From assembly GCF_008831545.1 (NCBI RefSeq), contig NZ_CP044523.1, positions 3,534,001 to 3,598,000 of the forward strand: DNA of 64,000 nt, given 5' to 3'. A program made the translations under genes and the position numbers. Below the pieces are notes generated by a model that was not told the DNA's origin, made no database searches, and saw only the letters and a program-made list of their open reading frames with translations. The stretch's first letter is position 1, and each line of letters starts with the position of its first letter. This DNA comes from Halorussus halophilus. GTDB lineage: Archaea; Halobacteriota; Halobacteria; Halobacteriales; Haladaptataceae. Shown here piece after piece: positions 12,394 through 54,821 of the stretch.

Positions 12394-12981
12394 ATGGAGA
12401 ACATGGACGGTTTGGCGGTGACGGAGTGTACCCGCTGTCCCGACCTCGTGGAGTGCCGGAGCCGAATCGTCAACGGCACCGGCCCGGAAGACGCGGACGT
12501 GTTGTTCGTTGGCGAGGGCCCCGGCGAACAGGAGGACCAGCAGGGCGAACCGTTCGTCGGCCGAAGCGGGTCGATTCTGGACGAGAAACTTCGGAACCGC
12601 GGCCTCTCGCGTGCGGACGTTCGTATTACGAACTGCGTACGCTGTCGCCCGCCGGAGAACCGCGACCCGACGAAGGAGGAACTCGAAAACTGTCGCGGCT
12701 ATTTAGAGCGAGAAATCGAACTAGTGGACCCCGAAGTCATCATTACGCTCGGTAAGGTCCCGAGTCAGCATCTCCTCGACCGCGACGTAGCGGTGACGAA
12801 GGAAGCGGGCCAGATAGAGCGTGTGGAACTCGGCGGTGCGTCCCGGAGCGTCCTCATCTGCGTCCACCCGGCGGCCACGCTGTACGACCGAAGTCAAGAG
12901 GAGACGCTCGACGCCGCACTCGACAAGGCCGCGACGATGGCCGGTGGGTCGAGCGGTCAGTCGCAACTCGGCGACTTCTAA
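12394..12981 (+). CDS. Family 4 uracil-DNA glycosylase
   Basis: 195 residues from MENMDGLAVTECTRC. Four Fe-S cysteines are visible: CTRC near the N-terminus, then NCVRCRPPENRDPTKEELENC. The catalytic and uracil-binding segment GEGPGEQEDQQGEPFVG is close to the family GEAPG motif, and ICVHPAATLYD carries the second conserved His. The enzyme excises uracil from DNA and begins base-excision repair. Size is normal for type-4 UDG. Confidence 0.95.
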   Translation: MENMDGLAVTECTRCPDLVECRSRIVNGTGPEDADVLFVGEGPGEQEDQQGEPFVGRSGSILDEKLRNRGLSRADVRITNCVRCRPPENRDPTKEELENCRGYLEREIELVDPEVIITLGKVPSQHLLDRDVAVTKEAGQIERVELGGASRSVLICVHPAATLYDRSQEETLDAALDKAATMAGGSSGQSQLGDF

Positions 12982-13041
12982 ACCATTTATTCCATATTTA
13001 TAACACTAATAACTAAGGCGTCTGCGTTCTCTTGGCAGTGT

Positions 13042-13266
13042 GTGTCACTCCCAACTCCCGTGTTCGGCACTGCCATCTCTCCGGTCGTCGTCGCCTCGAC
13101 GCTGTTCGTCTCCTTCTCGCTCGCACTGCTCGTCTACCTCGACGCAAAACGGAGACGGGCGAATCGGTACTCGCTCGCGCCGTTGGCGTGGGGCGCGACG
13201 ACGTTCTTCGCCGGTCTCGGCGGCCCGCTGGTCGCGCTCTGCTACGCGATAGTGCAACTGCGCTAG
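13042..13266 (+). CDS. Small two-span membrane protein
   Basis: 74 residues from a GTG at 13042. Two hydrophobic helices (PVVVASTLFVSFSLALLVYL, and TTFFAGLGGPLVALCYAIVQ) flank a basic loop DAKRRRANRYS that should lie in the cytoplasm. Unknown family. It ends just before the hairpin array and converges on the pseudokinase gene. Confidence 0.65.
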   Translation: MSLPTPVFGTAISPVVVASTLFVSFSLALLVYLDAKRRRANRYSLAPLAWGATTFFAGLGGPLVALCYAIVQLR

Positions 13267-13270
13267 AGTG

Positions 13271-13564
13271 GCCGTTCCGATTCGAGATTCCTGCGGAATC
13301 TCGCTACTCGCGGGTCGCGTTGCGAGAGTTCGCAGAACTCTCGCGGCTCTCGCTCGTTTTTTCGAGATTCGGTCGGCAGGGCCGACCGAATCTCGCTTGT
13401 TCCGCGACTTCGTCGGAAGACTCGCTTCGCTGGCCTTCCGAGCCTGCGTTCATTCTGTTCACGCAGACGTCGCTCCATTCCGAGGTTTCGGCGGCGAACG
13501 CCGAAACCTCGCTATCTCCACGGCTTCGCCGTTCCGATTCGAGATTCCTGCGGAATCTCGCTAC
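13271..13564. repeat. Array of hairpins bounded by a 37-base direct repeat, between convergent genes
   Basis: A 37-base sequence occurs at 13271-13307 and again at 13528-13564, identical in both copies. Each copy contains the palindrome CGAGATTCC-TGC-GGAATCTCG shape (13283-13303 and 13540-13560). Between them are more strong hairpins: 13322-13344, 13363-13395 and 13481-13511, plus two weaker ones (13403-13425, 13444-13466). The second copy runs into the stop codon of the minus-strand gene. A bidirectional terminator is plausible; the multiplicity is unusual. Confidence 0.8.
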
Positions 13565-15726
13565 CGCTCCAACGCGGCCCACCGAAACAGGTCGTCGAAC
13601 TTTAGCGCCGACTCGTGGCGGTCTTCGGGGTCGGCCGCCAACCCGGTCATCAACACGTCGTCAACTTCCGAGGGGAGCGCCGGGTTCAGCGCACTCGGCA
13701 ACGTTGGCTCCGCAGTTGGCACGACCCCCGTGAGCAGATGATAGCCGAGCGCGGCGAGTCGGTACACGTCCGTCTGCGGGGTCTGTTCGTCCGGTTGCTC
13801 CGGCGCGGCGTACCCTGCTGGCGACTCAACCACCGAATCGGAGAGGAACCACCCGCCGACGCGGGCGTTCTCGCCGCGGCCGGGAGACGGTAGGAAGACG
13901 CTGGCAGGCGAGAGAGTCCCGTGGACGACTCCCTCGTCGTGGGCGGCGTGGAGCGTCCGCGCGGCGGCCGAGACGGCTTCGACTCGCTGGACTGCGGCCA
14001 CCGGCCAGCAATCGGCCAGCGACCCACCTTCGGCGTAGGGCGTCTCGAACCACGGCCGTGGGTCGGTGCCATACTCTTGAATCGGCAACACGCCGCTCAC
14101 GTCGAGGTCGGCCCAGCGTTCGACTCCCTCGGCAAACTCGGCCGCCGTCTGCTCGTCTGCGCGCTCGGTCAGTTGCGTCTCCGCGACGACGGCCGTGCCG
14201 TCTGCCGTCTGGACGCGCTTGCGATACGTCTCGGTCAGCGGTCCCGTCCCGAGTCGGCCGAGACGGCCCAACTCTACGTCGGGTCGGGCGGCGCGCTGTT
14301 TGCGGCGATAGCCCGCGGCGAGGACGCCGACACCAGCCAGACCCAACACGGCGAGTCCGGGACCAGAGGTGGCGGCCCCGAAGAGCGTCGCGACGGGAGC
14401 GGTGACGAGCGGCGACGGCCTATCGACGGCGTACAGCGTGCCGCTTTCGGTTCCGAAGAAGAGGTCCCCGCCTTCGATTTCGGTCCAGTAGACTCGCTCG
14501 TCGAGTTGGTACGTCCACCGTTCGTTTCCGCTGTTCGCGTCGAGTCCATAGACTGCCTGCTCGCCGAGCGCGTAGACGATGCCGTCTGAGATGCCGCCCC
14601 AGTAGTCGTGGAAGCGCGTGTCCGTCGTCCACTCCCAGCGTTTGGCCCCAGAGTCGGCGTCCACGGCGTAGAGTTGCTCGCCGACACCGGTGTAGACTGT
14701 GCCGTCTTCGACCGTCACCACAGCAGGCGCGTGCCCTCGCTCTTCCTCCGGAACGCTGGTCCCCTTCCACGGGTCGAACGTCCACCGTCTCGCCCCGGTT
14801 CTGGCGTTGAGCGCGAGCAACTTCTGTCCCCAGACGAAGACGGTTCCGTCGGTCACCGCTCCGCGGAACTGGTGGATAGTTAGCGACTCGAACGTCTTTC
14901 GCCATCGTTCGGCCCCCGACCTGGCCTCCAAGGCAACGAGCGCGTTCTGGACCCAGACGTACAGCGCGTCCCCCTGTCGTTCGAGTATGCGTGGCCGGTC
15001 TTGGCCGACTGTCGCGCGCCACTGCTCGCTCCCGTCCGACGTGTTGACGGCGATGACGTTCCGATCACCGCCGGCGTAAAGTACTCCGTTCTCGACGTGT
15101 CGAGCGATCAGCGGCGACCCGTTCTCTCCGCCGTACGGCTGTTTCCACTCCGTTTCGCCGTCGCTCACGTCGAGCGCGTGCAGAATTACCTCCGAGTCGG
15201 GACCTTCTTCGAGCGCGGTGACGAAGACGCGCCCGTCGGCAATCAGTGGATTCCCCGCTCTGTAGTTCTCCTGTTCGAACGTCCACCGCTTCTCGCCGGT
15301 CGTCACGTCGAACGCTTGTACTCGCTGTTGGGTCTGAAGTAACACTGCGCCATCTACGAGTTCTGGAAGTGACGGATACTCCCGAAACTCGTGTCGCCAC
15401 TGAACGGACTTGTCGGCTTTCGAGAGTCCGACTAAGTCGAACCGTGGTCGATTGGCCGTGGCGTCGTCGTTTTCTTCTTGCTCGTGTCGTGGCCGCCGAA
15501 CGATAGTGACGACTGTCCCGTCGGCGACGACTGTCGGATAGATGGTCGTCTCTTCGCCGCCGGAGAACTGCCACTTGACGTGGTGACGACTCTCGATTCC
15601 GGGGAGGGAGAACGCGGGAGAAGCAGGACCGTCTTCGGACCCGGTGGCAGGCCCAACCGAACTCGTGCCACCGACTCCGGCCAAACCACCGAGAAACGAG
15701 CGGCGGTCCAACTCGGGGCGATTCAT
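13561..15726 (-). CDS. Exported PQQ-type beta-propeller fused to a cytoplasmic protein-kinase-like (pseudokinase) domain
   Basis: 721 residues. The N-terminus carries a Tat-type RRSFLGGLAG signal. Residues ~50-440 form a beta propeller with repeated Trp-ended strands (DGSEQWRATV, SGAERWRKTF, TGARRWTFDP, SGAKRWEW, SGNERWTYQL). A single membrane span follows (GPGLAVLGLAGVGVLAAGY, ~455-475), then a kinase-like domain to the end. Its glycine loop LGTGPLTETY and GYAAPEQ (APE) are recognisable. The VAIK lysine is not evident, the HRD motif reads HGTLSP, and the DFG position reads VGGWF. It is therefore probably a pseudokinase coupled to an outside sensor. It is followed by the hairpin array. Confidence 0.9.
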   Translation of the reverse strand: MNRPELDRRSFLGGLAGVGGTSSVGPATGSEDGPASPAFSLPGIESRHHVKWQFSGGEETTIYPTVVADGTVVTIVRRPRHEQEENDDATANRPRFDLVGLSKADKSVQWRHEFREYPSLPELVDGAVLLQTQQRVQAFDVTTGEKRWTFEQENYRAGNPLIADGRVFVTALEEGPDSEVILHALDVSDGETEWKQPYGGENGSPLIARHVENGVLYAGGDRNVIAVNTSDGSEQWRATVGQDRPRILERQGDALYVWVQNALVALEARSGAERWRKTFESLTIHQFRGAVTDGTVFVWGQKLLALNARTGARRWTFDPWKGTSVPEEERGHAPAVVTVEDGTVYTGVGEQLYAVDADSGAKRWEWTTDTRFHDYWGGISDGIVYALGEQAVYGLDANSGNERWTYQLDERVYWTEIEGGDLFFGTESGTLYAVDRPSPLVTAPVATLFGAATSGPGLAVLGLAGVGVLAAGYRRKQRAARPDVELGRLGRLGTGPLTETYRKRVQTADGTAVVAETQLTERADEQTAAEFAEGVERWADLDVSGVLPIQEYGTDPRPWFETPYAEGGSLADCWPVAAVQRVEAVSAAARTLHAAHDEGVVHGTLSPASVFLPSPGRGENARVGGWFLSDSVVESPAGYAAPEQPDEQTPQTDVYRLAALGYHLLTGVVPTAEPTLPSALNPALPSEVDDVLMTGLAADPEDRHESALKFDDLFRWAALER

Positions 15727-33395: not shown

Positions 33396-34049
33396 ATGAG
33401 CCTCATCGCCGAATTCACACTCCGCGCGCCGGACCTCGCACTGACGACGGCGTTGGACGCGGACACCGACATCACAGTCGAGTTAGAAGGGCAGATGGCG
33501 ACGAGTTCCGACACCCCGGTACTCGTCATGTGGGCGTTCGGCGGTGACTTCGACACCTTCGAGGTCGGTCTCGACGAGGACCCGACCGTTCGGACGTACA
33601 ACGTCCTCGAAGAGTTGGGCGGCCGGAAACTCTACCGCGTCCGACTCGCCTCCGAGAACCTCCAACCAGTGTATCCCGTCTACCAGCGTCTCGGGGCTGG
33701 ACCGCTGGCTGCGACGGGAACGCACGAAGGCTGGCAACGCCGCGTTCGGTTTCCCGACCGCGAATCGGTCGTCGAGATGCGCGAGTTCTGTACGGAAAAC
33801 GACGTTCAGTTCCAACTCCGCCGACTCTACACCCCCGGCGAGTCGGACCTCGAAGACGAGTTCGGTCTCAGTCCCGAACAGCGCCACGCCCTCGTCGTCG
33901 CGGAACAGAACGGCTACTTCGACGTGCCGCGACAGTTGTCGCTGGACGACCTCGGTGAGCAACTCGGCGTCAGCGGCCAGTCGGCTTCGGAGCGACTTCG
34001 ACGCGGGGCGTCCCAACTCGTGAGGAAGACGCTGCTGAGTGATTTTTAG
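33396..34049 (+). CDS. Bacterio-opsin-activator-type HTH regulator (HTH-10)
   Basis: 217 residues from MSLIAEFTLRAPDLA. A sensor-like beta-rich N-terminal part is followed by the HTH-10 motif: FGLSPEQRHALVVAEQNGYFDVP, then LSLDDLGEQLGVSGQSASERLRRG. It resembles the protein at 24463. It may respond to a small signal and activate a few promoters; targets unknown. Confidence 0.92.
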   Translation: MSLIAEFTLRAPDLALTTALDADTDITVELEGQMATSSDTPVLVMWAFGGDFDTFEVGLDEDPTVRTYNVLEELGGRKLYRVRLASENLQPVYPVYQRLGAGPLAATGTHEGWQRRVRFPDRESVVEMREFCTENDVQFQLRRLYTPGESDLEDEFGLSPEQRHALVVAEQNGYFDVPRQLSLDDLGEQLGVSGQSASERLRRGASQLVRKTLLSDF

Positions 34050-34115
34050 CGACGAACGGAGTGCTACTCGGCGCGTAAAAGAAACGGAGAAGCTGTGTTT
34101 TGCAGACGGTGCGAA

Positions 34116-34136
34116 CGAGATTCCGGAGGAATCTCG
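34116..34136. terminator. Hairpin between convergent HTH-10 and thermosome genes
   Basis: CGAGATTCC-GGA-GGAATCTCG forms a perfect 9-base stem. It is almost the same hairpin as in the array at 13283-13303 and 13540-13560, and like them lies between convergent genes. Confidence 0.6.
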
Positions 34137-34203
34137 CCGTGAAGCGGTGAAGCCGCGGGACCGGACAGCGGTGGGTGTATGGGTTGACCTAACTGACCGG
34201 AGC

Positions 34204-39678: not shown

Positions 39679-40100
39679 ACGAGACAGTAAGTACCGCTCC
39701 TTTAACCACCGAACGAAACCCCGCTGTCTTGCCGTTTGGGATGACTTGCATGTTACCAGCAGGCGACGACGACACTGGTACATCTGACACCTGCGGTGCT
39801 GGGCCGTCCGGTGGCTGTTCTCGGTGCTGTGCGGTGGTTGTTTGCGGTGCTGAGCGGTAGCTGTCGAGAACTATTTTCAACTACCGCGAACGAAGCGAGA
39901 CGCGCTCCGCGCGCCTCGTGAAGTGAGCGCGTCCGAGGAACCCTCGAAGGAGGCCGCAAAGCGGCCTCCGGAGGGGGTGACGACGTGTCATTGGGAGCGT
40001 AGCGACCGATTGCTCGGAAGACGCGGTTTGTCTTCCGGTGATTTTCATGTACGTTTTGCCAGCGGGTGGTCGCTCTGCGACCACCCCGCAGGAAAAGGTT
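39679..40100. repeat. Non-coding island: GCGGTGCTG motifs and a family A head
   Basis: 422 bases without a convincing gene. GCGGTGCTG occurs at 39793 and 39844, with TCGGTGCTGTGCGGTGG at 39821. 39881-39935 (CTACCGCGAACGAAGCGAGA ...) matches 63699-63750. Inverted words such as GGCCGCAAAGCGGCC (39953-39967) follow. Confidence 0.65.
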
Positions 40101-40717: not shown

Positions 40718-40992
40718 GAACGACCTTTTTTCTCGTCGGGTGCCGTCGCGCCGAAGGTGCTCGGTACCGCTCTCTGCTCACGGCCGCAGGCCGTCTGCTC
40801 GCGGCTTCGCCGCTCGCACGGTCCGCGGAACGTCGTTCCGCGCTATTCGCATGGTTCGAGGGACGTAGTCCCTCGGCACTCCAAAAAATGTCGATCAAAA
40901 AACGGACGCTCGAAATCTGAGCGCGCCGCGCTCAGATTTCTCACGTCTTCTTCACGGTGGTGACCTACCGCAGGAGGAAATCCCCCTCGCCG
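40718..40992. repeat. Dispersed repeat family A, copy 1
   Basis: Starts ACCTTTTTTCTCGTCGGGTG (40724) and contains several palindromes: CGGCCGCAGGCCG, GCGGCTTCGCCGC, GAGGGACGTAGTCCCTC and GAAATCTGAGCGCGCCGCGC (40912 on). Then TCACGTCTTC. Shares its ends with 54527-54650. Confidence 0.8.
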
Positions 40993-54482: not shown

Positions 54483-54821
54483 ATGTGTGTTTTGCAACTC
54501 GCTCGGCGGGGAACTAGTTTTCGACGCCACCTTTTTTCTCGTCGGGTGCCTACGCGCCGGAGGCGCTTGGCACCCTCCTCCAAAAAATCTGGACCAAAAA
54601 AATCGACGCTTGAAATCTGTGCGCGCCGCGCACAGATTTCGCACGTCTTCCACGATTGGTTCGACTACAGTACAGCACCGCACAGCGAGGTCAACAGCCG
54701 TGCGCCGACCGCATTGGTGACCGACAATATCCACAAAAAGTTACAGAACTCGCGTTGCGTCGAATCGGCGGGTTTCGCAGGCACCCGAACCACCTTTTCC
54801 CGTGGGAGTCAATCGATTGGC
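54483..54821. repeat. Non-coding island with family A copy 2
   Basis: 339 bases. 54527-54650 is family A copy 2: CACCTTTTTTCTCGTCGGGT, then CTCCTCCAAAAAATCTGGAC and GAAATCTGTGCGCGCCGCGC. Next to it is the inverse GCGGTGCTGT word (54667-54682). No gene. Confidence 0.75.

Follow-up and report, generated by a model that had tools for sequence, protein, structure and literature searches.

Background

RPEs are palindromic elements that occur in frame within unrelated Rickettsia housekeeping genes, where the encoded peptide is tolerated, as well as in intergenic DNA, according to passages of two articles (PMC10969869, PMC3733652); the first of these, a review, gives their size in one such passage as about 150 bp. 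Bacterial GTAG REPs, as sections of the second article describe them (Di Nocera 2013, PMC3733652), often provide TAG stop codons and are also found within genes for DNA repair; that article uses the word 'archaea' only twice, both times in the reference list. PARCELs--palindromic amphipathic repeat coding elements--are tandem, intragenic elements of bacteria and eukaryotic microbes according to an abstract (PMC2996958), and archaeal MITEs include those of Haloquadratum and Halobacterium according to part of the review (PMC10969869). Searches covering part of the literature returned no haloarchaeal report of such elements.

Here a computational analysis is used to characterize a hairpin array within the window, that is, within the whole 64,000-nucleotide stretch of Halorussus halophilus DNA under study (positions below are those of the window unless a contig or locus is named). 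The array probably represents a non-autonomous palindromic DNA repeat found in haloarchaea, units of which are here lined up head to tail. This reading is developed below by comparing the array's units with each other, with their counterparts elsewhere in the genome, and with the corresponding sites of related genomes.

The array and its units

Read on the minus strand, the array consists of four head-to-tail palindromic units, each composed of a hairpin termed H1 and a small second hairpin termed H2. The unit is about 48 nt long and has the form [T]AG-CGAG-X-N3-X'-CTCG, a spacer, and then GCGGC-GAA-GCCGC-GAG: H1 thus has a conserved foot, CGAG...CTCG, usually preceded by AG or TAG (within the array mostly by TAG or AAG), and H2 is GCGGCGAAGCCGC. 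A covariance model of the unit, termed R1, was built from 8 of 14 aligned units, four of the 8 coming from ScpA; the subset was used because the 14-unit alignment, which mixed 8-bp and 9-bp stems, was misaligned. All R1 matches in the array are on the minus strand (C1:3547516-3547564, 3547457-3547515, 3547339-3547399 and 3547241-3547307), and the first two abut exactly, so that these units stand head to tail. The features of the locus are as follows.

13267-13564, minus strand: the whole array of four units, two of whose H2 hairpins contain extra palindromes, between convergent stop codons (R1 matches, hairpins, reverse-complement parse)
13271-13307, no strand assigned: first 37-base direct repeat (repeat search)
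13283-13303, minus strand: H1 hairpin of unit 4, identical to that of unit 1; the H2 of unit 4 is cut short at the end of the plus-strand gene
13322-13344, minus strand: hairpin GCGAGAGTTC/GAACTCTCGC, which lies within unit 3's H2 region and has a near copy at locus L069
13363-13395, minus strand: H1 hairpin of unit 3, 15-bp stem (hairpin search)
13404-13473, minus strand: H2 arms of unit 2, GCGAC/GTCGC, split by two other palindromes (by-eye reading of sequence and fold; same arrangement at locus L073)
13413-13441, no strand assigned: nested palindrome TCGGAAG...CTTCCGA, imperfect, of a separate family (blastn and fold)
13444-13466, no strand assigned: nested palindrome CTGCGT...ACGCAG (blastn and fold)
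13481-13511, minus strand: H1 hairpin of unit 2, 13-bp stem (hairpin search)
13520-13532, minus strand: H2 hairpin of unit 1, ACGGC-GAA-GCCGT (sequence, R1 match, fold)
13528-13564, no strand assigned: second 37-base direct repeat (repeat search)
13540-13560, minus strand: H1 hairpin of unit 1, CGAGATTCC-GCA-GGAATCTCG (repeat, hairpin and R1 searches)
13561-13563, minus strand: TAG stop codon of the PQQ-propeller/kinase-like gene, which also opens unit 1 and lies within the second 37-base copy
13561-15726, minus strand: flanking gene, encoding a PQQ-type propeller and a kinase-like domain (protein kind as read from the translation), with orthologues in the genus

The preliminary description reported a hairpin array with two identical 37-base copies, each containing a hairpin, and both statements are borne out. 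The array region contains five perfect hairpins with stems of at least 9 bp, as against never more than one (mean 0.016) in 1000 dinucleotide-preserving shuffles, and both of its strands fold far more strongly than shuffled sequences do (z -8.4 and -7.9). The 37-base copies are 100% identical because units 1 and 4 have a common stem. Of the six strong structures counted there, five are indeed perfect, but the sixth (13413-13441) is imperfect; the weaker structures mentioned alongside them correspond, by eye, to 13444-13466 and 13520-13532.

Because two palindromes interrupt the H2 of unit 2, and because the same plan recurs at L073, it follows that palindromes have entered palindromes. The nested pair (TCTGCGTG...CGCAG and CTCGGAAG...CTTCCG; window 13413-13466, L073 1400-1460) forms a family of its own, which is positioned inside the H2 loop of other units and which gives blastn matches in most genus genomes, at many places in G001-G017; when the array is compared with the other genomes of the genus, matches to query positions 147-206, attributed to the palindrome at 13413-13441, dominate.

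The same junction in related genomes

Two convergent genes flank the array, which fills the 294-nt gap separating their stop codons. On one side, the small plus-strand gene ends with the TAG at 13264-13266; its open reading frame, which escaped the home-made gene finder used here, ends in LAWGATTFFAGLGGPLVALCYAIVQLR as read by eye. On the other side, the first TAG of the array doubles as the stop codon of the minus-strand gene. Nine relatives were inspected at this site, and both genes are readable in five of them: G007, G016 and G017 have a 4-nt overlap of the two stop codons, which are separated by 40 nt in G013 and by 41 nt in G008. (The neighbouring gene differs in G002 and G011, and the match is partial in G004 and G015.) Judged from this comparison of sequences, the array is an addition at the convergent-gene site relative to these congeners. 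The overlapping-stop junction of G007, G016 and G017 reads CGCTAGCG, which by eye resembles the start of the unit, TAGCGAG.

Distribution of the unit

The stem CGAGATTCC-N3-GGAATCTCG had been noted to recur at 34116-34136, also between convergent genes. It does so as part of a solitary unit, the genes around which end at 34049 (plus strand) and 34204 (minus strand):

34112-34160, plus strand: solitary unit, H1 and H2, between convergent genes (R1 match C1:3568112-3568160, E 6.5e-12)

A genome-wide stem search, which the preliminary description had called for, locates the pattern CGAGATTC-N3-30-GAATCTCG at 15 places in the 4.45 Mb of the window's genome, versus none for a reversed control; R1 matches the same genome at 66 places with E<=0.01 and at 79 with E<=0.1. 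The array's hairpins thus belong to a dispersed family, in keeping with one of the possibilities raised earlier, that of a small amplified palindromic family.

The genomic context was surveyed for 64 of the 66 matches, the partial opposite-strand 3267793-3267813 and 274332-274393 being left out: 26 are in tandem intergenic regions, 19 within coding sequences (CDS), 9 in convergent and 7 in divergent regions, and 3 are unclear. Six of the 64 (L001, L003, L004, L009, L010 and L046) belong to a different, larger element that has only H1 in common with the unit. Coding DNA makes up 81% of the placed sample, versus 19/64 matches; therefore, the unit avoids genes overall. Between genes, its placement follows region length (26 tandem versus 21.3 expected, 7 divergent versus 10.9, and 9 convergent versus 9.7; p 0.29) and shows no preference for convergent genes, the point on which the preliminary description had asked for a test; of the two outcomes that it named as refuting, random placement with respect to gene orientation is thus observed. 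Relative to flanking tandem genes, units are found on either strand.

These observations bear on the proposal that the array is a multi-terminator, or a replication or segregation site, special to its locus. Although such a site would fit the convergent position and the several strong hairpins, the unit occurs at dozens of places, including within biosynthetic enzyme genes, and is absent from the orthologous site of relatives. Moreover, intrinsic terminators--that is, a hairpin followed by a T run--number zero on either strand of 12900-13700, where shuffles contain a mean of 1.0. The terminator reading was rejected on this count together with an intergenic placement that region lengths predict, and the proposal as a whole is scarcely credible.

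R1 matches at E<=0.01 are present in 52 of 69 related genomes (18 of 18 in the genus and 10 of 10 others in the family), those in other families of the order being mostly weaker. Within a 157-genome sample of the phylum, 20 genomes match at E<=1e-4, all of them in the window's order; no match was obtained in the remainder, made up of 117 unlisted genomes and, among those listed, 6 inside and 14 outside the order. Nine of 12 relatives' copies that were inspected are intergenic, and in-frame copies within genes were read in G005 as well as in G032 and G035, which belong to other families.

Units within protein genes

The 19 CDS copies, which occur in 16 genes, are without exception on the strand of the gene (19/19 copies, p 4e-6; 16/16 genes, p 3e-5), and 17 of the 19 share one codon phase, in which the C of CGAG is a third codon base. 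The genes involved encode (i) tryptophan synthase alpha (TrpA), PurK, NucS, MutL (two copies), NAD synthetase and a Dna2-like helicase; (ii) anthranilate synthase, an FMN oxidoreductase, PspAB, a DUF5806 protein, ScpA and a phytoene-desaturase-like oxidase (the last name being a reading); and (iii) Spt5, lipoyl synthase and an endonuclease IV-like protein (the last name again a reading), in which the unit is at the C-terminal end. The peptides encoded by the inserts are acidic or polar, as in TSEARRASEHASGEAAS; peptides such as SEARSASNASGEAAS would be part of TrpA, PurK or NucS if the inserts are translated and kept. Compared with solved structures, the inserts in PurK (3ax6, T. maritima), NucS (2vld, P. 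abyssi) and TrpA (5ey5) correspond to gaps.

Clean inserts of 45-48 nt, each at one position, are found in TrpA and PurK. The TrpA insert, between ...IYQYG and EPFV, is present in 4 of 18 genus genomes (G000, G006, G007 and G008); the other 14, and 12 of 12 genomes of the order that belong to other families, have TrpA without the unit. (The trpA of G029, one of these 12, has an unrelated glycine/aspartate-rich insert in the same loop at locus L139, which suggests that the loop tolerates inserts.) The PurK insert is likewise present in four genus genomes (G000, G004, G011 and G014) and absent in 14. By a tree based on PurK and TrpA columns only, and none from ScpA, the filled site of G004 is to be set against the empty one of its near sister G015, and the filled site of G014 against the empty one of its sister G005. 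The latter comparison can be read directly, as GAGACG-AGCGAG-[unit]-AGCGAG-GGCGAGATT in G014 versus GAGACG-AGCGAG-GGTGAGATT in G005; the PurK insert of G004 holds a second, nested hairpin. The sharing of this position by the distant G000, G004, G011 and G014 could also reflect one old insertion with subsequent losses, or gene exchange. By eye, AGCGAG stands at both ends of the insert in PurK of G014 and in TrpA of G000, two sites only, where it could be a target-site duplication; but this word also belongs to the unit itself and is a frequent way of encoding Ser-Glu.

At the smc/scpA junction, the unit is present in 11 of 17 readable genus genomes; in the window's genome it is further in, and five genomes are without it. 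In those 11, scpA starts with ATGACTAG followed by the hairpin, the TAG being the stop codon of smc; at the five loci without a unit the smc stop codon, where readable, is TGA. Loci L159 (1764-2720) and L172 (1494-3074) contain tandem in-frame units in single genes (ANEGLENASGETASEREED repeated; ASEGLEAERRSRG twice); therefore, arrays form within coding sequence too.

Besides smc in these 11 congeners, the TAG of the foot serves as a stop codon at L156, L069 and L167 and at 13561-13563 in the window. Bacterial GTAG REPs are reported to provide stop codons in this way, and copies of the unit occur in DNA repair genes (those for MutL, NucS and the Dna2-like helicase), as GTAG REPs do according to sections of the same article (PMC3733652). 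The unit might therefore be a member of that family, moved by a RAYT transposase. Yet only 7 of the 64 matches have GTAG in front of CGAG (11 have NTAG), and a PF01797 search of the window's genome returned two Y1 transposases only, both on contig C3 and neither with a TAGCGAG palindrome beside its gene; no Y1/RAYT-type transposase was found on the chromosome. Because the tag is present in so few copies and no RAYT was found, the unit is not classed as a GTAG REP, and its membership in that family is very unlikely.

Pairing within the stems

That stem sequences vary while pairing is kept, as stated in the preliminary description, agrees with a comparison of stems across units. Among ScpA units with 9-bp stems, from seven species, the stems differ and 62 of 63 cells are paired (98.4%), versus 24-54% in slid controls; both sides have changed in 4 of the 9 pairs, and one-sided changes are zero. 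Inasmuch as the ScpA amino acids change along with the stems, it is the pairing, not the peptide, that is kept. The inner stem pairs of 42 of the 64 units--picked by hand, with larger-element copies, same-gene repeats and some others omitted--include 5 G-U pairs and 11 other mismatches among 209, even though the scoring favoured G-U. The scarcity of G-U is read as upkeep at the DNA level: in this small set, Watson-Crick pairing at nearly every position would reflect hairpin-guided copying or correction of DNA rather than selection on RNA.

This matters for the alternative that the hairpins are kept for an RNA function, either in 3' UTRs, where they would stabilise transcripts or end them, or, within genes, as mRNA structures. 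Strong folds on both strands and compensatory stem changes speak for it, as do several units that immediately follow a stop codon (at L156, L069 and L167 and in the window). A stem selected as RNA, however, would be expected to contain more G-U pairs, and these are fewer here than the other mismatches. Also against it are the lack of a terminator-like site at 12900-13700, an intergenic placement that tracks region length instead of convergence, and the occurrence of intergenic units in both orientations with respect to the tandem genes beside them. An RNA function is thus quite improbable.

Template switching during replication is a process by which quasipalindromes are corrected. Without any mobile element, it might make or perfect hairpins in a genome that is GC-rich and filled with CGAG. 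This would account for perfect complementarity with few G-T pairs, for apex sequences that vary among copies while pairing is kept, and for the several other hairpin families that the window's genome also holds. On its own, however, it leaves unexplained both why copies share one two-hairpin plan, in which the foot and H2 are nearly constant, and the clean 45-48 nt insertions at one position in TrpA and in PurK; as a complete explanation it is therefore unlikely. Under the preferred reading, that of a non-autonomous palindromic DNA repeat, template switching may well act on copies after their arrival.

Proposed mechanism

The junctions at three empty or filled sites contain AGCGAG or TAGCG. 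An enzyme of host or mobile origin would copy the unit at the level of DNA--the PF01797 search described above did not find the mobilising enzyme--and the unit would enter at an AGCGAG- or TAGCG-like sequence; arrays would then grow because each copy brings such an entry sequence along. Inserts in genes would survive only where translation of the sense strand follows the one frame that is acidic and free of stops (SE..-..NASGEAAS), which would suit the surfaces of haloarchaeal proteins, while in intergenic DNA orientation and length would be free. At the locus considered here, a unit would have landed where two convergent stop codons meet, so as to supply what is now the TAG of the minus-strand gene.

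A broader formulation is possible but tentative: the unit may be a gene-invading palindromic element adapted to do no harm within coding DNA (stop-free and acidic in one frame, about 48 nt long, and re-creating AGCGAG, its entry sequence), spread throughout the order by copying machinery unrelated to RAYT and repeatedly adding surface peptides to core enzymes.

Other repeated elements

A separate conserved element of about 145 nt occurs at 39883-40023 (plus strand) in the window and at C1:274356, 2402515, 1158436, 2487039 and other places. Its plan is ACCGCGAGCG-hairpin-GAGCGAGCGCGTCCGAGGAACC-hairpin-GGTGACGACGTGATTTTCATCNACGTTTT; a T-hairpin-A block often comes next, and the GAGGAACC/GGTGACG part of the element resembles a kink-turn. 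The fold covaries: among 13 copies, 16 of 31 pairs have changed on both sides; 35 copies are present in the window's genome at E<=1e-6, and the element is found in all 18 genus genomes and all 10 other family genomes searched. The window copy has no Rfam match at the gathering score.

Another repeated block is at 40797-40960, with counterparts at L050, L101, C1:3351181 and 3532352; it consists of a CGAGGGAC hairpin followed by GAAATCTG-NNCGC...CAGATTTC, with a 13-15 bp stem. Related stems are found at 54612-54640, L088, L097, L098 and L101.

Comparison with known systems

If the preferred reading--a non-autonomous palindromic repeat--is correct, then Archaea, like Rickettsia and some REP-rich bacteria, have palindromic elements that lie in frame within genes, and these have inserted peptides into core enzymes (TrpA, PurK, NucS, MutL, NAD synthetase and ScpA) in a manner that is patchy among congeners. 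It would then be testable how such repeats move without a RAYT and how folded enzymes accept new surface peptides. For annotation, it would serve as a warning that some species-specific inserts in haloarchaeal proteins derive from a DNA repeat.

The unit resembles archaeal MITEs, as part of the review portrays them, in being a small, non-autonomous archaeal repeat, but an unsystematic look revealed no terminal inverted repeats matching an insertion sequence. It can be set beside PARCELs, on the basis of their abstract (PMC2996958), as palindromic DNA that codes for repeat peptides, but differs from them in that they are tandem, intragenic and known from bacteria and eukaryotic microbes. With GTAG REPs, as those sections of Di Nocera's article describe them, it has in common short hairpins, a TAG that is often a stop codon, and copies both in arrays and in DNA repair genes, but it differs in carrying the tag in only 7/64 copies and in the lack of a detected chromosomal RAYT in the window's genome. 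Like RPEs, it is a palindromic repeat found in frame in unrelated protein genes (19/64 matches in 16 genes, with orthologues that are without the inserts); unlike them, it is haloarchaeal, measures about 48 nt and comprises two small hairpins, as against about 150 bp for an RPE, the likeness being one of published description. By analogy, then, the haloarchaeal unit behaves like both the bacterial REP elements and the RPEs.
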